From: a virus
Reading direction: 5' to 3' (one strand)
DNA: 31,504 bases
Virus record (IMG/VR): IMGVR_UViG_3300032296_003894
Span: 1 to 31,504 of that record
Within the stretch, counting starts at the first letter, position 1. Each line of letters begins with the position of its first letter. Shown piece after piece: positions 10,513-27,366 of the stretch. The translations under genes were made by a program, and so were the position numbers. The notes under the pieces were generated by a model, which made no database searches, had not been told where the DNA came from, and saw nothing but the letters and a program-made list of their open reading frames with translations.

Positions 10513-11001
10513 ATGGCAATTATAAGCTCAAATGAACTATTTTATACAGCGTTTGAACCAAAACAGGCAAACCGATTTATTCTATACGCTGATGGAATAC
10601 CAACCTGGATGATTAAAGGAGTAAGTGCAATTAACTTAACTCAAGGTGAAGTAGTATTAAACCACATTAACGTTTTACGTAAAGTTAAAGGTAAAACAGT
10701 TTGGGGTGATGTTACTATGACATTGCATGATCCAATTTCACCTTCTGGTGCTCAAACAATAATGGAATGGGTTCGCTTATCACACGAATCAGTAACAGGT
10801 AGAGATGGATACTCTGACTTCTATAAGAAGGATTTAACTATCAATGCTCTCGGTCCTGTAGGTGACGTGGTAGCTGAATGGGTACTTAAAGGCGCGTTTG
10901 TTAAAGATGCTAACTTCGGTGAATATAACTGGGATACTGAAAATACCGCTATAAACATCACCATGACATTAGCAATTGATTACGCAGTATTGAATTACTA
11001 A
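10513..11001 (+). CDS. gp19: Tail tube protein (gp19-like)
   Basis: 162 residues, the usual length of T4 gp19 (163). Features typical of the family are FEPKQANRFILYADGIPTWMIKG near the start, LRKVKGKTVWGDVTMTLHDPI in the middle, MEWVRLSHESVTGRDGYSDFYKKDLTI, and WVLKGAFVKDANFGEYNW near the end. Hexameric rings of this protein stack to make the inner tube through which DNA passes. It follows the sheath gene and is followed by a strong intrinsic terminator, so it is the last gene of its block. Identification is firm from these motifs and synteny. Confidence 0.95.
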   Translation: MAIISSNELFYTAFEPKQANRFILYADGIPTWMIKGVSAINLTQGEVVLNHINVLRKVKGKTVWGDVTMTLHDPISPSGAQTIMEWVRLSHESVTGRDGYSDFYKKDLTINALGPVGDVVAEWVLKGAFVKDANFGEYNWDTENTAINITMTLAIDYAVLNY

Positions 11002-11104: not shown

Positions 11105-11839
11105 ATGGAAAACAAGTTTAGTATGCCAACCGAAATGGTTGACCTCCCATCAAAGGGTTTAGTCTACCCAGAAACAAGTCCTCTCTCAAGCGGTAAAGTT
11201 GAAATGAAATATATGACTGCTAAAGAAGAAGATATTCTAACAAATCAAAATTACATTCAAAAAGGAACAGTATTAGATGAATTAATTAAATCTCTTATTG
11301 TTACTCCTAATGTAAAATATGAGGATATGGTTGTAGGTGATAAAAATGCTTTATTAGTAGCCGCTCGTGTTTTAGGTTATGGTAAAGATTATAAATTTAT
11401 GTATGGTGGTGAAGAACAAACAGTTGATTTATCTACTATTGAAAATAAACCTATTGATGAATCTTTGTTCACTCAAGGTAAAAATGAGTTTGAATATACT
11501 CTTCCATCAACAGATACTAAAATTACTTTTAAGTTATTAACTAGCAATGATGAGAAAAAAATCAATGCTGAATTAGAAGGTTTTAAAAAAATTAATAAAA
11601 ATAATGTCCCTGAACTATCAACTCGTTTAAAGTATATGATTACTTCAGTTGAAGGTAATACTGATTCTAAAACAATTAGAGAATTTGTTGATAATAATCT
11701 TTTAGCTCGTGACTCCAGAGCATTTAGGGAGTATGTAAAGGAGGTTCAGCCAGACGTTGATCTGACCTTTTTTCCCGACGGGAGCGACTCAAAAGTCGAC
11801 CTTCCAATTGGACTTAACTTTTTTTGGCCTGACCTTTAA
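11105..11839 (+). CDS. gp26: Baseplate hub protein, gp26-like
   Basis: 244 residues. The N-terminus MVDLPSKGLVYPETSPLSSGKVEMKYMTAKEEDILTNQNYI is the hallmark of the T4 gp26-type baseplate family (lPSkG..Y....pL.sGkV.mk.mTa.eEdiLtn), followed by the LIVTPNVKYEDMVVGDKNALLVAARVLGYG block. The C-terminus ends LPIGLNFFWPDL. It belongs to the central hub or its assembly pathway. The last ~110 bases are noticeably more GC-rich than the rest, and from 11766 the +1 frame is also open. The stop context CTT TAA T, in front of an ORF without an ATG, raises the possibility that some ribosomes shift +1 and make a ~333-residue fusion. The T4 order 26-51-...-29 is respected. Confidence 0.85.
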   Translation: MENKFSMPTEMVDLPSKGLVYPETSPLSSGKVEMKYMTAKEEDILTNQNYIQKGTVLDELIKSLIVTPNVKYEDMVVGDKNALLVAARVLGYGKDYKFMYGGEEQTVDLSTIENKPIDESLFTQGKNEFEYTLPSTDTKITFKLLTSNDEKKINAELEGFKKINKNNVPELSTRLKYMITSVEGNTDSKTIREFVDNNLLARDSRAFREYVKEVQPDVDLTFFPDGSDSKVDLPIGLNFFWPDL

Positions 11840-12107
11840 TATAGCTCCTCAATTCCGAGTTAATCTTTTTACACAAATTCATGAAATAATTTTTCATGGC
11901 CAAGGCGGTTATGACTGGGAGACAGTCTATAACATGCCTATTTGGCTTCGTAAGTTTACTTTTCATAAGATAAAAACATATTATGATGAGAAAAATCAAG
12001 TCAATAATGGAGATTTAGATGCTCAAACTTCTGCTATTAAAGACGGCAAAATTCAAATCCCAGACCATTTTAAAGGTAAACTAGAACAGAAAGCTCCAAA
12101 GTATTAA
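11808..12107 (+). CDS. Tail assembly/baseplate ORF in the gp51 position, lacking an ATG start
   Basis: Open frame +1 relative to the gp26-like gene. From a TTG at 11808 it gives 99 residues; the frame is open from 11766. The content looks genuinely coding: QFRVNLFTQIHEIIFHGQGGYDW, then VYNMPIWLRKFTFHKIK. The first in-frame ATG (in NMPIWL) would remove the best-looking part. So it starts either at a rare codon (TTG 11808, inside the upstream gene) or by +1 frameshift at CTT TAA T (11834-11840), which would add about 89 residues to the 244 of the upstream protein. In T4 the gene after 26 is 51, a hub assembly factor, but I cannot confirm homology. It ends with KAPKY at a late-region motif. Confidence 0.7.
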   Translation: MDLTFFGLTFNIAPQFRVNLFTQIHEIIFHGQGGYDWETVYNMPIWLRKFTFHKIKTYYDEKNQVNNGDLDAQTSAIKDGKIQIPDHFKGKLEQKAPKY

Positions 12108-12132: not shown

Positions 12133-15100
12133 ATGGCTACAACTCCAAACAGTAATCCTAATCAGTTAAACGAAAAGCAATTAAAAAATTTAATTTATCT
12201 TTTACAAAAAATTGATGAATTAACTGAAGAAGGTGCTGAAAACCTTGCTTCCCAACTTCAGTCTGCTGGTAATGCTGGTAAAGAATTAAGCCGATTAGAA
12301 AAAGAATGGAATGATATTACTGGTGATATTAGTCATGGTGCTGTTGGCTTTAGAGAAATTTTAGAAATAATAAATGATTCTAATGAAGGTTTAAGATTAT
12401 CTTCAAAAGTATATAAAGGACTTACATCTCTTGCTGATTTACTACAAAAATATCAAAGAGGTTCTTCAAATGTATCTGAAAAGGAAATCATTAATAGGAA
12501 AGAACTATTAGAAGGATCTAAAATTGAACTAGAAACTGCTAATAAACTATTAGAAGGTAAAAATGAAGAATTAAAATCTAGTAAAGAAAAAAAGAAAGAA
12601 GAAAAACAGATATTAGAGGTTAAAATTAAAGATTTAGCTCAAAAAGAAAAATCATTTTTAGGATTAAGTGAGAAAGAAAAAATTACTCTCCAACAAAATC
12701 GTGAAAGAGTAAAAGAAATAGATCGTGAGTATAAGTCTATAGAGAACCAAATTAATAAAAATAATAAAATATTAGAGCAAAATACTGCTGTAATAAAAGA
12801 TTATGATGTTTTATTTAAAGATTTAGAACTTACTCTTCAAGATATAGGCCAAAAAATCAAGTTTAAAAACATTGAAAACTTAGATGAAAAGCTTAAAAGT
12901 ACAGTTAAAGAAACTTTATCTACAGATGAAAATGTAGTTAAAATTAATAAATCATTTAATGTTTTAAATGGTTTAGCTCAAAAAGCTTACGATCATCAAA
13001 ACGGAATAACTGAGTTAAGTAGTAAAGAAATTAAAAGTTTAGTACAAAAACAAGAATATGAGTATAAGTCTTTACTTAATCAAGAAATAAGTCTTAAAAA
13101 AGAACAAATTTCTTTACAAACTCAATTAAATGAAAATAAAGCTTTAATAGCAACTACAAAACAACGAGAAGAACAACTAAAACTTTTAGAACAAGATGGT
13201 AGATTAACTAAAGAACAAAAAGTAGAATTAGAAAATATCCCATCTTTACTTCAAAAACAAAATAAAATTTCTAGTGAATTAAATGAAAAATTAGAAACAA
13301 ATGCTAAAATCCAGGAAAAAGTTTATAACACTATAACTGATTCTAGTGGAGCATTAAATACTTTAAAAAATACTTTAAATAAAATATCTAAAGAAGATAA
13401 AATTAAAAGTATTGAAAATTTAGACCAACATCTTAAAGATATTGTTGAAAATGCTCAATCAACAGATGAAAATTTATTTAAGGTTACTAAATCATTTACT
13501 TCTATAAATAGTATAGCTCAAAAATTCGAAGACCATCAAAGTGGAGCGAATAAATTAAGTGAAAAAGAAGCTAAACAATTACTAGATAAATTAGAATCAG
13601 AAAGAAAACGTTTATCTTATAGATATGAATCACTTAAATTAGAAGAACAAAGATTAAAAAAAGAAGAACAATCTAACAAAACGTCTCTAGACAGTATAAA
13701 ACAAGAAATTGATAATTTAGAAGCTAAAAGTACTTTAACTGAAGATGAAGAAAAAAAGTTAAAAACTTTTAAAATTGAATATCAAACATTACTAGAAACT
13801 CAGAATAAAATAAATGGAGATATTGAAGTTAATAAAGTTCTTCAAGAAAAAACACTTGAAGTTGTAAATAAACAAAACGAAGCTTATAATAAAACTGTAG
13901 ATAACCTTAAAGCTGCTAAAAAAGAAGCAGAAAACATGAGGAAAGCTCTTGGTTTAAGTGGTTTAGCAGTTGATGGTATAGGAAAAGCACTTGGTAAAAT
14001 AGGATTAGGTGGATTAGCCTCAATTATGGGGTTAGATGAGGCTAAGGAAAGAATGAAGGAAGTAGCTGATGAAATTACCGATGGTGGTAAAAAAGCAGCT
14101 GGTCTTGGAGGTCAATTTAGAATTTTAATAGCTGGTTTAAAAGAAGTAGGTGCTAGTATACTTAAAAATTTAAAAGATCCTGTAGTTATAGTTACTGGTT
14201 TAGTAGCGGGATTAACTGCTGGTATTAAAGGTTTAATTTCATTATTTGAAAAAACAGCTAAATTTAATGGCGATATAGCTAAAACATTTGCTTTATCGGC
14301 TGACGAATCTTCAAAAATAGGTGATAACCTAAGGTCAGCAGCTAATAGTGACTTCTTTATGAATAATGAGGAAGCTAGTAAAGCATTTAGTGCTATGGCT
14401 GAAGCTACAGGTACTATAAATAGTGAAATGTCATCTGATAAAGCTACATCAGCTATGAATGACATGGTGACCTATGCTGGTTATACTGTTGAAGAATTTC
14501 AATCATTATATAAGTTAGGTAAACTTAATAACAAGTCAGCAGATGAAATGGTTACTAGTCTTCAAGGCCAACTTAAAGTACTTCAAGTAAACAATAAACT
14601 TCGAATAAATGAAAAGCAAGCTGTTGAACTAGTAGCCAAAGCCAGCTCAACAGTTAGAATGAATTTAGGGCAAAACCCTAAAAAATTAGCTGACGCGGCT
14701 TTTTATGCTTCTAAATTAGGCATGACTTTAGATGAAATATCATCTGCTGCTGAACAAACCTTAAACTTTGAATCCGCTATACAAAACCAGTTAGAATATC
14801 AAGTATTAACTGGTAGAGAAATTAACATCGATGCTTACCAACAAGCTGCTGCTTCAGGTGATACTGCTAAGGCAGCTGAAGAGATGAACAGGATATTAAA
14901 TGAGCAGGGTGATAATATTAAAGGCAACTTCTTCGCACAAGAAGCATTAGCTAAAACATTAGGTATATCGAGAGAACAAATGATGAAATCTCTTGAATTA
15001 CAAAAAATTCAAAAGAAAACAGGTGGTGACATAGCACAAATTGAGCAAGCTATTAATAAAAAAATGAAAGACGGCCTTACTTTTGAACAAGCTGCTGCTG

Positions 15101-16446
15101 AAGCTAGTAAAGAAGGTTATGAGTCTATGGTTAAACAAAACCAAAATGCTGAGGTATTTACTAGAACAATTAGTAAGATTAAAGAAGTCTTTATGAATAC
15201 TATAGCTAGTAGCCAAGGATTTAAAAATTTACTTGATCCAAAAAACATTGATAAATTTGTTGATATTATTAAAACTAAAGTTATCCCGTTTGTTCAAAGA
15301 GCTGGAGAGTTAATAGGTAAATTAATAGACCCAAATAATATTGATAAATTAGTAGCTAAATTTAAAGAAATTGGTGCTATCTTAAAAGTAGCAGGTACAG
15401 TTATAGCAGGAATAGCTGCTTTAAAACTAGCTCAAGGTATTAAAAATCTTATCATGGGGCAACGAGGTAGTAGTCCTATGAATCCTCTTTATGTAACACC
15501 AACTGGTGGTGGTATGGGTGGAGGAGGAATGAATATACCTGGAGGAGGCACTTCTTTAATGTCTAATGTGCTTAAAGGGGCTAGTAATTTAGTTGGTGGT
15601 AAAAACACCATGGTTGGACGTGGTTTACGTAATTTAACAGCTTCTGTTATTAAAAGTAATAGAGCTGGAGGGATAGCATCTAATTTAGCCTCTAAAGTTC
15701 TACCAAAAGTTGCTTCTGGAGCATTAGGGACTATAAGTAAATTTGCAGCTCCTATTACATCCTTAGCTATGACTGGTAAAGGACTATATGATTCCGCAAC
15801 TGATGAAAAACTTAGAAAAACAGGAGGTGGAGGATTTTTTGAACAATTAGGAGGTACAGGGATGCATATCCTTGACACTATGACTTTTGGTGCTACTAAA
15901 TTCCTTAGTAATAAAGCTGGAATATCCATCCCGGGTATGGATACAGATGATGTAGCGGCAGCTAGAGCTATTTTCCATAAATCAGGCCGAGATCCAGATA
16001 ATAGTAGAACACCTATGAGTCTGGATAATAAACAATTAATTCAAGATATATTAGCTAATTCTTCTGATTATCCTGAAGGAATAGTAGAACAAGCCCAAAA
16101 TGTTAACATTGAGGAAATAGAAGATGGCCGTTTAAACCCTAATGGTGGCCCAGTAGTATCTACATTTCAAAAAGGTGAATTAGTACCTATAATGCAAGGT
16201 ATTAAAGAAGATAATGTTTATATGACTACTAATAAACCTGTTCAACAAGTTTCTGATGGGTATTATGGTAGATCTTCTCAAGATAATTCCGCATTTGCAG
16301 CTGCATTAGATAGATTTACTAAAGCATTAAGTGGCAATAAAGAAGTAACATTAGTTATAAATGGCAAAGAATTAGGAACAGCTTTAATCCCAATCATGAC
16401 CCCAGGAGTAGTTAGACAAATGAATATTGATTCTGTATTAGTTTAA
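12133..16446 (+). CDS. Tail tape measure protein (gp29 position)
   Basis: 1437 residues, the longest protein of the window. Residues ~60-610 are three diverged ~180-residue units of Lys/Glu-rich coiled coil. Residues ~640-1120 are more globular, with hydrophobic stretches near 681-705 (VVIVTGLVAGLTAGIKGLISLF) and 1080-1103 (VAGTVIAGIAALKLA), typical of tape measures that may insert into the host membrane. A Gly/Met-rich linker follows near 1118, and the C-terminus contains VSTFQKGELVPIMQGI and VTLVINGKELGTALIPIM. The extended helix fills the tube lumen and sets tail length. T4 gp29 is 590 residues, so this tail should be much longer if the ruler rule holds. Position after the 26/51 genes and before the tube-cap genes matches T4. 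Confidence 0.85.
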   Translation: MATTPNSNPNQLNEKQLKNLIYLLQKIDELTEEGAENLASQLQSAGNAGKELSRLEKEWNDITGDISHGAVGFREILEIINDSNEGLRLSSKVYKGLTSLADLLQKYQRGSSNVSEKEIINRKELLEGSKIELETANKLLEGKNEELKSSKEKKKEEKQILEVKIKDLAQKEKSFLGLSEKEKITLQQNRERVKEIDREYKSIENQINKNNKILEQNTAVIKDYDVLFKDLELTLQDIGQKIKFKNIENLDEKLKSTVKETLSTDENVVKINKSFNVLNGLAQKAYDHQNGITELSSKEIKSLVQKQEYEYKSLLNQEISLKKEQISLQTQLNENKALIATTKQREEQLKLLEQDGRLTKEQKVELENIPSLLQKQNKISSELNEKLETNAKIQEKVYNTITDSSGALNTLKNTLNKISKEDKIKSIENLDQHLKDIVENAQSTDENLFKVTKSFTSINSIAQKFEDHQSGANKLSEKEAKQLLDKLESERKRLSYRYESLKLEEQRLKKEEQSNKTSLDSIKQEIDNLEAKSTLTEDEEKKLKTFKIEYQTLLETQNKINGDIEVNKVLQEKTLEVVNKQNEAYNKTVDNLKAAKKEAENMRKALGLSGLAVDGIGKALGKIGLGGLASIMGLDEAKERMKEVADEITDGGKKAAGLGGQFRILIAGLKEVGASILKNLKDPVVIVTGLVAGLTAGIKGLISLFEKTAKFNGDIAKTFALSADESSKIGDNLRSAANSDFFMNNEEASKAFSAMAEATGTINSEMSSDKATSAMNDMVTYAGYTVEEFQSLYKLGKLNNKSADEMVTSLQGQLKVLQVNNKLRINEKQAVELVAKASSTVRMNLGQNPKKLADAAFYASKLGMTLDEISSAAEQTLNFESAIQNQLEYQVLTGREINIDAYQQAAASGDTAKAAEEMNRILNEQGDNIKGNFFAQEALAKTLGISREQMMKSLELQKIQKKTGGDIAQIEQAINKKMKDGLTFEQAAAEASKEGYESMVKQNQNAEVFTRTISKIKEVFMNTIASSQGFKNLLDPKNIDKFVDIIKTKVIPFVQRAGELIGKLIDPNNIDKLVAKFKEIGAILKVAGTVIAGIAALKLAQGIKNLIMGQRGSSPMNPLYVTPTGGGMGGGGMNIPGGGTSLMSNVLKGASNLVGGKNTMVGRGLRNLTASVIKSNRAGGIASNLASKVLPKVASGALGTISKFAAPITSLAMTGKGLYDSATDEKLRKTGGGGFFEQLGGTGMHILDTMTFGATKFLSNKAGISIPGMDTDDVAAARAIFHKSGRDPDNSRTPMSLDNKQLIQDILANSSDYPEGIVEQAQNVNIEEIEDGRLNPNGGPVVSTFQKGELVPIMQGIKEDNVYMTTNKPVQQVSDGYYGRSSQDNSAFAAALDRFTKALSGNKEVTLVINGKELGTALIPIMTPGVVRQMNIDSVLV
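12310..13960 (+). repeat. Three diverged ~180-residue repeats inside the tape measure
   Basis: Approximate bounds. Units 2 and 3 align well: IENLDEKLKSTVKETLSTDEN (residue ~247) with IENLDQHLKDIVENAQSTDEN (~427), an offset of exactly 540 bases; then KSF..(L/I)N.(L/I)AQK with LS.KE.K.L. Unit 1 is more degenerate but keeps VYKGLTSLADLLQKYQRG and VSEKEI (~114), where units 2 and 3 have LSSKEI (~296) and LSEKEA (~475). Confidence 0.75.
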
Positions 16447-25238: not shown

Positions 25239-26324
25239 ATGGCTAAAAAGAAAGAATCTTTAATGACAGCGGTCTCTGAAGAAATTAAATCAAGTTTTAA
25301 CCTTGATAAATTCAAAGAGAAAAAATTGCTTAACAGTACAGTTAAGTTTAAAGAGCAGAGATGGATCCCATTTTCAGAAGCATTACAAGATTCAACTTCA
25401 CTTCCAGGTGCAGCTATAGGTCATATTAATCTTTTAAGAGGACACAGTAATACAGGTAAAACAACAGCTTTACTTGAGTTGGCAATTAATGCCCAGAAAA
25501 TGGGCATTTTGCCTGTGTTCATTATTACAGAGATGAAATGGTCTTGGGAGCACGCTAAACAAATGGGTTTTCAAGTTGAAGATGTTGTTGATACAACAAC
25601 AGGTGAAATTGTAGATTATAAAGGTTTTTTCCTATATAATGATAGAAGTGCGTTAGGTACTATTGAAGATGTAGCAGAGTTTATAGCTGACTTGTTAGAT
25701 GAACAAAAGAAAGGTAATTTGCCTTATGATTTATGCTTCTTTTGGGATTCAATAGGGTCTATACCTTGTAAAATGAGTGTTGAAGCAAATAAAAACAATC
25801 CAATGTGGAATGCGGGCGCAATGTCACAACAATTTGGAAATTTTATTAATCAACGCTTTCCATTATCACGCAAAGAAAATTCACAATTTACAAATTCAAT
25901 GGTAGCAATTAATAAGATCTGGATCGCACCAGCTGAAAATATTTTTGCTCAACCTAAAATGAAGATGAAAAATGGTGAAACAATGTTTTTAGATGCTTCA
26001 ATTGTACTTACATTTGGTAATATTACTAATAGTGGTACTAGTAAATTGAAAGCAACTAAAGACGGTAAAGAAGTAGAATTTGCAGTTCGTACCAAAGTAT
26101 CAGTAGATAAAAACCACGTTACAGGTCTACAAACTAAAAATACAGTAGTAGCTACAGTTCATGGTTTTATCAGTGATGATAACAAAGATATAAATGAGTA
26201 TAAAAAACAACATGCTCATGAGTGGGTACATATCTTAGGAAGTCTTGATGGTATTGGTCTTACTGAGGATAAATCAGAATGGGAAGAAAGTAAAGAAAAC
26301 ATCACTTTAATTGACGAAGAATAA
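25239..26324 (+). CDS. uvsX: UvsX/RecA-type recombinase
   Basis: 361 residues (T4 UvsX: 393). Walker A GHSNTGKTT lies at residues 68-76, a canonical G....GKTT. ITEMKW (95-100) gives the probable catalytic Glu98, and LCFFWDSIGSI (165-175) is the Walker B strand with Asp170. SQQFGNFINQRFPL and STMVAINKIW-like segments follow in the ATPase core, and the C-terminus is acidic. It forms filaments on ssDNA and drives strand exchange for recombination-dependent replication and repair, displacing the gp32-like protein encoded 20 bases upstream. It is in the same operon with no promoter visible between. The acidic tail overlaps no other gene; the next ATG comes one base after the stop. Confidence 0.92.
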   Translation: MAKKKESLMTAVSEEIKSSFNLDKFKEKKLLNSTVKFKEQRWIPFSEALQDSTSLPGAAIGHINLLRGHSNTGKTTALLELAINAQKMGILPVFIITEMKWSWEHAKQMGFQVEDVVDTTTGEIVDYKGFFLYNDRSALGTIEDVAEFIADLLDEQKKGNLPYDLCFFWDSIGSIPCKMSVEANKNNPMWNAGAMSQQFGNFINQRFPLSRKENSQFTNSMVAINKIWIAPAENIFAQPKMKMKNGETMFLDASIVLTFGNITNSGTSKLKATKDGKEVEFAVRTKVSVDKNHVTGLQTKNTVVATVHGFISDDNKDINEYKKQHAHEWVHILGSLDGIGLTEDKSEWEESKENITLIDEE

Positions 26325-26325
26325 C

Positions 26326-27366
26326 ATGGATAAAAAAGATCTGTTTAAGTTACTGGACAATATTCAACCTGGTAACGAACCTGGAAAAGCAACATTTAAT
26401 AAGCATGATAGGGTTCTTATCATTGATGGATTGAATTTGTTTTTAAGAAACTTTGCAGTCATAAACTATGTTAACCCAGATGGTGTTCACATTGGAGGAT
26501 TAGGAGGATTTTTACGTTCATTAAGTTTTTTAATTAACCAAAATACCCCTACCTCTGTGTATATTGTATTTGATGGAGTTGGTTCAACCATAAACAGGAA
26601 GAACCTTCTCCCCGAATACAAATCAGGACGTAATCTTTCTAGAGTAAACAGAAGTTCTACATTTGATGATATAGATGAAGAAAATGAATCTAAAGTAAAT
26701 CAAATATCTAGACTTATTCATTATTTAAGGTGTTTACCCGTTAAACTCATTTCACTCGACAAAGTCGAGGCAGATGACATTATAGCGTATTTATCCAGCT
26801 ATATGTCCACAGAATATAACTCTAAATGTACTATAGTATCAGCAGATAAAGATTTTTTGCAATTAGTAGATGAAAATATTACTGTTTACAGCCCAATTGC
26901 TAAAGAATACTATACTCCAAAATTAGTGAAAGAAAAATTTGGATTACCTGCTAAAAATTTTATATTATATAAGACATTAATGGGTGATAATTCGGATAAA
27001 GTACCCGGATTGAAAGGATTAGGCCCTAAAAAGTTATTTAAATTCTTCCCAGAGTTGCAAGAAGAAATATCTTTGGATGATTTGTATAATATTTGTGAAA
27101 ATAAGTATAAAGATAATGTTATATACTCAAAATTTATATTTGAATATGAAACATTACAAAAACATTATAAGTTAATGGATTTAAGTAATCCATTAGTTGA
27201 TAATGTAGAGAAAAAATATATAGAAAATATTACTTTATTACCATCTGAAAAGATAAAGGTAACAGAATTTTTAAAGATGTATAATGAAGACAAATTAGGA
27301 CATACATTAAAAAATGTAGAGTTTTGGATTAGAAGCACATTTACAACATTAAGTAGTTTTAAATAA
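26326..27366 (+). CDS. 5'-3' exonuclease / flap endonuclease (T4 RNase H-like)
   Basis: Start taken at ATG 26326, one base after the uvsX stop; a TTG at 26311 would overlap uvsX and adds nothing conserved. 346 residues. The FEN/PIN metal-binding acidic residues are all present: VLIIDGLN (Asp34), IVFDG (Asp83), VEADDI (Glu148, Asp150, Asp151), VSADKD (Asp174, Asp176) and MGDNSDKVPG (Asp221, Asp224). GLKGLGPKK is the helix-3-turn-helix DNA grip. It removes RNA primers and flaps during lagging-strand synthesis, working with the helicase encoded downstream and the gp32-like protein. Residues 100-120 form a charged insertion at the expected helical arch. T4 RNase H is 305 residues, so the size fits. 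Confidence 0.9.
   Translation: MDKKDLFKLLDNIQPGNEPGKATFNKHDRVLIIDGLNLFLRNFAVINYVNPDGVHIGGLGGFLRSLSFLINQNTPTSVYIVFDGVGSTINRKNLLPEYKSGRNLSRVNRSSTFDDIDEENESKVNQISRLIHYLRCLPVKLISLDKVEADDIIAYLSSYMSTEYNSKCTIVSADKDFLQLVDENITVYSPIAKEYYTPKLVKEKFGLPAKNFILYKTLMGDNSDKVPGLKGLGPKKLFKFFPELQEEISLDDLYNICENKYKDNVIYSKFIFEYETLQKHYKLMDLSNPLVDNVEKKYIENITLLPSEKIKVTEFLKMYNEDKLGHTLKNVEFWIRSTFTTLSSFK

Follow-up and report, generated by a model that had tools for sequence, protein, structure and literature searches.

A probable +1 frameshift joining a T4 gp26-like gene to a gp51-like tail, and an apparent -1 counterpart in T4-like phages

The gene pair between the tail tube and tape measure genes

The window, that is, the whole stretch of DNA analysed here, is an IMG/VR virus record of 31.5 kb. 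Two overlapping reading frames, ORF1 and ORF2, are found in it between the genes of a tail tube protein and a presumed tape measure protein, with the following features.

10513..11001, + strand: tail tube protein, upstream neighbour (phrog_4542, E 4.5e-20)
11105..11839, + strand: ORF1, T4 gp26-like, putative short (G-like) tail assembly chaperone of 244 aa (PF12322; phrog_150; AF2 pLDDT 91; YqbN 3klu and HK97 2ob9 as top two structure matches, with modest Z)
11819..11825, + strand: candidate site of the +1 slip, C_TTT_TTT_T, with codons at 11819-11821 and 11822-11824 and re-pairing at 11823-11825
11825..11833, + strand: TGG CCT GAC, read as W-P-D in frame 0 and, after the proposed slip, as GGC CTG ACC (G-L-T) in the +1 frame
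11826..12107, + strand: ORF2 as it would be expressed by the shift, T-like tail of 93 residues (GLTFNIAPQF...KAPKY) plus stop, homologous to the T4 gp51 C-terminus
11834..11839, + strand: CTT TAA, ordinary end of the short product and formerly proposed RF2-like site, not kept in relatives
12133..16446, + strand: presumed tape measure protein of 1437 aa, downstream neighbour, assigned by position and length; the equivalent gene of Flavobacterium phage immuto carries the annotation tail tape measure protein

ORF1 ends with ...GGA CTT AAC TTT TTT TGG CCT GAC CTT TAA T, which contains a run of seven T at 11819-11825. As the original prediction had observed, the +1 frame is open (11766-12107) and has no early ATG: its only starts are the TTG at 11808 and an internal ATG (in VYNMPIW), 33 codons beyond the CTT. 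The fusion of 333 aa predicted beside the 244-residue product would have this length for any slip site used. The -1 frame is closed one codon after the ORF1 stop and the run reads C_TTT_TTT; a canonical -1 heptamer X_XXY_YYZ (T_TTT_TTN with an open -1 frame) is therefore not present in the window. Residues 1-456 of the tape measure candidate gave no match in a profile search.

Shine-Dalgarno (SD) pairing is absent at nearly all of the 21 gene starts checked (window 424-30250), the clearest exception being 22529, and, judged by ORF1, Flavobacterium phage immuto is the nearest isolate; the host is therefore likely a member of Bacteroidota. Among the other genes of the window, the ORF at 26311-27366 is listed with a TTG start that overlaps the preceding gene, and ATG 26326, just past the preceding stop, makes it an ordinary ORF.

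Conservation of the +1 arrangement in relatives

Viral contigs contain at least 595 stretches that code for an ORF1 relative, from which the best 80 were fetched and more were added by a second scan. An ORF2 in the +1 frame overlaps ORF1 in 166 loci (150 distinct), wherever the contig is long enough, and never lies in the -1 frame among the close loci. The exceptions are the distant locus L006, where the second frame is -1, and L077, where ORF2 is broken. In tblastn with the +1 peptide, the overlapping +1 ORF was also found in Flavobacterium phage immuto, Microcystis phage Mel-JY01, LR756508 and viral contigs, and the sole contig from a single-protein search of genome contigs, a Flavobacteriales MAG contig with an ORF1 48% identical, keeps both TTT TTT TGG CCT and the +1 ORF. 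The SP-15 and LR756508 proteins, used as queries in further scans, brought in no additional relatives. An assembly error or a decayed gene, for which the truncated ORF2 of L077 might speak, can practically be dismissed: the arrangement is shared by 145 distinct loci as well as isolate genomes, a comparison that already refutes this reading.

In at least six loci (L055, L064, L067, L073, L081 and L084), a stop interrupts the +1 frame 6-12 nt ahead of the site described below, and the first ATG, GTG or TTG comes only at codon 37, inside the conserved domain. Ordinary initiation therefore cannot make ORF2 in those loci. This bears on the alternative offered with the original prediction, that ORF2 is a separate gene translated from TTG 11808, or else by coupled reinitiation at a rare start codon. 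A TTG recurs near that position in many relatives, and the junction reads TAATG in two distant ones (Vibrio D506 and BX-1) and in KVP40. The TTG is nevertheless not conserved: several relatives have no start codon before the conserved domain, and stops between the TTG position and the site. Anti-SD pairing before TTG 11808 amounts to -0.4 kcal/mol; an SD is, however, missing from most window genes as well. Since a separate start would also leave the sequence constraints of the site unexplained, namely its invariant TTT TTT T and the avoidance of a preceding T, we consider it unlikely.

Codon constraints at the slip site

The relatives share the block V_TTT_[TC]TT_T (window 11819-11825), which encodes an FF or FL pair. 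In counts that come from related and thus non-independent sequences, and are given without P-values, the first codon is TTT in 145/145 loci, the second is TTT in 127 and CTT in 18 (TTC in 0/145), and the base that follows is T in 145/145. TTC, never used in the site, makes up 13% of Phe codons elsewhere; Leu at the site is always CTT (18/18), which is 18% of Leu codons elsewhere. The base before the site is C in 118 loci, G in 22, A in 4 and T in 1 (n=145). AAT outnumbers AAC elsewhere by 1355:556 (2.4x), yet the pre-site base is almost never T; with T in that position, the -1 heptamer T_TTT_TTT would arise, and the near-absence of T is read as avoidance. The next codon is TGG in 135 loci and another T-initial aromatic codon otherwise; CCT follows the TGG position in 145/145, and the Asp codons after it are GAC in 132/133. 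Synonymous diversity is normal until two codons short of the site and drops sharply at TTT TTT TGG CCT GAC, past which the next codon and the stop are variable again.

We propose that ORF1 and ORF2 are very probably one gene, which would produce two tail assembly chaperones by a +1 programmed frameshift at C_UUU_UUU_U. The comparison of relatives argues for this dual-product tail gene, as originally predicted, by the conserved frame and site, the missing starts, the gene neighbourhood and the protein family. The majority of ribosomes would stop at the end of ORF1 and release the 244-aa gp26-like (G-like) protein. A fraction would slip one base forward on 11819-11825, with Phe-tRNA re-pairing from UUU to UUU (in some relatives from UUU to UUC, or Leu-tRNA from CUU to UUU), and would continue in ORF2 to give a 333-aa GT-like protein (..LNFF|GLTFNIAPQF..). 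Either codon may serve for slipping: LR756508 (TTT CTA TTC) is compatible with a slip on the first codon only and Streptococcus phage GXN1 (TTC TTT CGT; L007:3200-3215) with a slip on the second codon only.

The original prediction had noted the T7 run in passing and placed the slip at CTT TAA, in the manner of the RF2 (prfB) site. The conserved site is indeed the run (TTT TTT T or TTT CTT T), not CTT TAA, and with the proposed slip placed there, the expected junction peptide is LNFFGLTFNIAPQF in place of LNFFWPDL-NIAPQF. An RF2-like shift would fit CTT TAA T as it stands in the window, and prfB shares the +1 direction and, in the CTT clade, the possible re-pairing of CUU to UUU. CTT TAA, however, is not kept in relatives: the codon before the stop varies freely (CTC, ATC, GCC, GTC, GCT CAA, TAT and others), and the stop, which may be TGA, TAA or TAG, is located 4-9 codons past the invariant block, so that the trigger is not a stop codon occupying the A site. 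A conserved slip codon followed by an in-frame stop, with an SD 3 nt upstream as in prfB, was not found in the window group, which makes an RF2-like shift extremely unlikely.

The CTT clade bears on two further alternatives. A -2 frameshift on the same run would reach the same frame with one extra Phe (NFFFGLT, compared with NFFGLT for +1); the second Phe-tRNA in C_TTT_TTT_T has the option of re-pairing at either -2 or +1, and the counterpart gene of Mu uses -2 (PMC5009743). In the TTT CTT relatives (18/145), by contrast, -2 would leave Leu-tRNA facing UUC or Phe-tRNA facing NCU, poor pairings in either case, while +1 re-pairing is good, and we regard -2 as improbable. RNA polymerase slippage at the T7 run, yielding a mixed mRNA population, is conceivable for seven T within an AT-rich gene but depends on homopolymer length; the CTT form interrupts the run, with the arrangement unaffected and +1 re-pairing preserved. 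Polymerase slippage would also exert no selection against a T preceding the run and is very unlikely.

No downstream RNA structure conserved in the +1 group was found by RNAalifold on a MAFFT alignment, mean z of single-sequence folding being -0.95 downstream and -0.58 upstream of the site, and no SD-like stimulator was found close to the slip codon. For these reasons, the efficiency of the +1 shift may be low. One +1 subclade (L053 and relatives) conserves GAGGAGG (Glu-Glu-Val codons), a strong SD-like tract, about 33 nt before the slip codon; considered as a stimulator, it was rejected for being too far by known spacings and confined to a single subclade.

The gp26/gp51 family

ORF1 matches phrog_150 with E 3.5e-9 and PF12322 with E 1.6e-4, at 21.9 bits, just below the cut-off of 24.5; its relatives L003, L007 and L170 reach 57, 89 and 86 bits with PF12322. 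A chain of tblastn matches leads from the window to LR756508, SP-15, GXN1 and LIS04, and from these to KVP40 gp26 and the cyanophages. The same Pfam family takes in all of these intermediates, KVP40 gp26 and its cyanophage relatives, T4 gp26 (E 8.8e-64) and residues 1-201 of T4 gp51 (E 3.9e-52). T4 gp51 therefore consists of a gp26-like domain and a C-terminal tail of about 50 aa. KVP40.0327, Bellamy gp11 and P-SSM2 'gp51' are the tail alone, directly after gp26. Paired CxxC motifs (zinc-ribbon-like) are present in the gp26-like proteins of L003, L004, L007 and L170 and in T4 gp26 and gp51, and are absent from the window group.

Judged from profile comparison, ORF2 is homologous to this C-terminal tail (the last ~50 aa) of T4 gp51. 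The combined tail profile of the +1 group aligned in hhalign with that of the -1 group and gp51 at P 5.6e-6 and a score of 33.2, compared with at most 15.0 when columns were shuffled 40 times, and the T4 gp51 tail aligned with the other tails at P 3e-7; a first pass without intermediate sequences had given P 7e-4 (reversed control 0.68). Searches of ORF2 against PHROG, Pfam and NCBIfam gave only phrog_32580 'tail assembly chaperone' at E 0.1, which is not used as evidence.

T4 has two genes where the window has one pair of overlapping frames, and neither T4 nor Enterobacter phage EnC07, which has a full-length gp51-like gene, carries a heptamer: their FF pair reads TTC TTT or TTC TTC, and that of T4 gp26 (TTC TTT) is no slippery site. 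In a tree with an arbitrary root, gp26 and gp51 of T4 and EnC07 cluster (support 88/77, moderate) within an otherwise -1 half, as duplication predicts; the other half holds the window group with SP-15, LIS04 and GXN1 (+1) and two -1 lineages.

A -1 site in cyanophages, vibriophages and Aeromonas phages

In 81/81 distinct cyanophage and vibriophage loci (L172-L255), gp26 ends with nnT_TTT_TTC, one codon and a stop, and the -1 frame at T_TTT_TTC, a canonical -1 heptamer, opens into the gp51 tail ('truncated gp51'). The codon before TTT_TTC always ends in T and is usually Ser (AGT or TCT). About 10 nt upstream of the cyanophage heptamer there is a strong match to the anti-SD with a mean of -7 kcal/mol and a peak for 8-mers starting at -16. 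The Glu-Gly pair encoded there is GAG GGN (60) or GAA GGG (17 of 19 with GAA), GGG being 5% of Gly codons elsewhere, and the dependence of GGG on GAA gives a Fisher P of 2e-10 uncorrected for relatedness. Heptamer and upstream SD-like element are arranged as in the dnaX -1 site.

A -1 frameshift thus appears, from these genomes, to join gp26 to 'truncated gp51' in cyanophages and vibriophages; for Bellamy, the predicted -1 junction peptide is LEGLASFFRVALSHMSLEGYYR (of the ..FFR.. type). This is apparently unreported: no account of gp26/gp51 frameshifting was found in open-access papers, and an earlier report elsewhere is possible. Two parts, their order and a junction at FF are as in the window, and the +1 reading of the window gains support because the FF at the sister group's junction is itself a -1 heptamer; the differences are the -1 frame, the T_TTT_TTC or T_TTT_TTT form of the site, and the SD-like element in cyanophages.

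Aeromonas T4-like phages carry the -1 heptamer as well. In Aeh1, Aeromonas 65, Cronobacter S13, C48C1 and VmeM-32, the tail lacks a start codon close to where it begins; in Aeh1 (L256:1957-2125), S13 and VmeM-32 (L256, L260 and L266 being the loci noted for a -1-frame tail) it is unannotated; gp51 of Aeh1, reported missing, is present as a tail in the -1 frame. Most cyanophages and KVP40 also have a start codon just past the gp26 stop, where separate initiation of the tail may occur beside the shift. Vibrio D506 and BX-1 (L261, L264) have a gp26-like gene without heptamer or slip site and a tail ORF that starts with TAATG, perhaps a coupled restart and a fourth way to express the tail. In L006:3190-3280 (LR756511, a huge phage), the gp26-like gene reads GGT TTT TTC TTC, followed by a -1 ORF into a tail-like domain and by a long frame-0 extension after the heptamer.

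Throughout the T4 superfamily, gp26/gp51 is likely to be the G/GT chaperone pair, and three modes of making it would all centre on one conserved FF: +1 shifting in the window group and the SP-15/LIS04/GXN1 lineage; -1 shifting in cyanophages (with a dnaX-like SD stimulator), in Vibrio, Aeromonas and Stenotrophomonas phages and others; and, in T4, duplication of the gene and loss of its slip site. The direction would then have switched within one gene family, perhaps following SD use of the host; as a suggestion only, the +1 form, lacking an SD element, may fit hosts that do without SD pairing, and the -1 form that has one, hosts that rely on it. According to a 2016 review, the G-T frameshift is kept widely among long-tailed phages, with T4 as the exception (PMC5009743), T4 gp51 is described as essential with a function unknown (PMC3004832), and a 2010 comparison found gp51 of cyanophages and vibriophages short by about 200 N-terminal residues and Aeh1 without gp51 (PMC3037559). 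If the proposal is true, one explanation covers the T4 exception, the gp51 puzzle and the short or missing gp51: the absent 200 residues would be gp26, joined by the frameshift, and T4 would seem an exception through having swapped the shift for a duplicated gene. A near-core gene of marine T4-like phages would need re-annotation, with the idea testable in the classic model, and the family would offer a natural case in which the slip direction differs at one site.

Predicted function and comparison with known systems

Gene order (tail tube, ORF pair, tape measure), a second ORF without its own start and, from the comparison of relatives, a conserved slippery site are all found here as in G/GT systems. 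The best two of 383 PDB chains re-aligned to the AF2 model of ORF1 were Bacillus subtilis YqbN (3klu; Z 5.6, 89 aligned, rmsd 4.3) and the HK97 chaperone 2ob9 (Z 4.6, 81 aligned, rmsd 3.5), values that are modest and may be due to chance, with Foldseek E not significant; a PICI-like ORF19 protein followed at Z 3.9 and the other rows at <=2.5. YqbN is presumably an XkdN-like prophage chaperone. The AF2 model of ORF2 (pLDDT 77, three helices) had no significant match in BFVD or PDB, and a sequence search of the PDB gave no match. Gene order and two-product design, with weaker support from the predicted fold, suggest a chaperone role of G/GT type.

T4 gp26 and gp51 are listed as hub assembly chaperones, and gp51 reportedly does not occur in the final particle (PMC3004832). 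If the pair works as lambda G/GT does, the common part of the two products would cover the tape measure protein, the tail gained through the shift would bring in tail tube subunits, and both products would be expected to be missing from the virion. Like lambda G/GT and the counterparts in P2, Mu and HK97, the window has a pair of overlapping ORFs flanked by tail tube and tape measure genes, and a minor product that would be the first ORF extended by a frameshift; the N-terminal fold may weakly resemble HK97 2ob9. It differs in the +1 shift with UUU_YUU_U, compared with the usual -1 heptamer (-2 in Mu), and in its protein family, that of T4 gp26 (PF12322), annotated as baseplate hub.

The +1 direction has parallels in genes unrelated to that of the window. 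The chaperone shift of the haloarchaeal myovirus HSTV-2 is cited as very likely +1, and influenza PA-X shifts +1 at UCC_UUU_CGU, with Phe-tRNA moving from UUU to UUY (PMC5009743). TTC TTT CGT of GXN1 shares UUU_CGU with the PA-X site.
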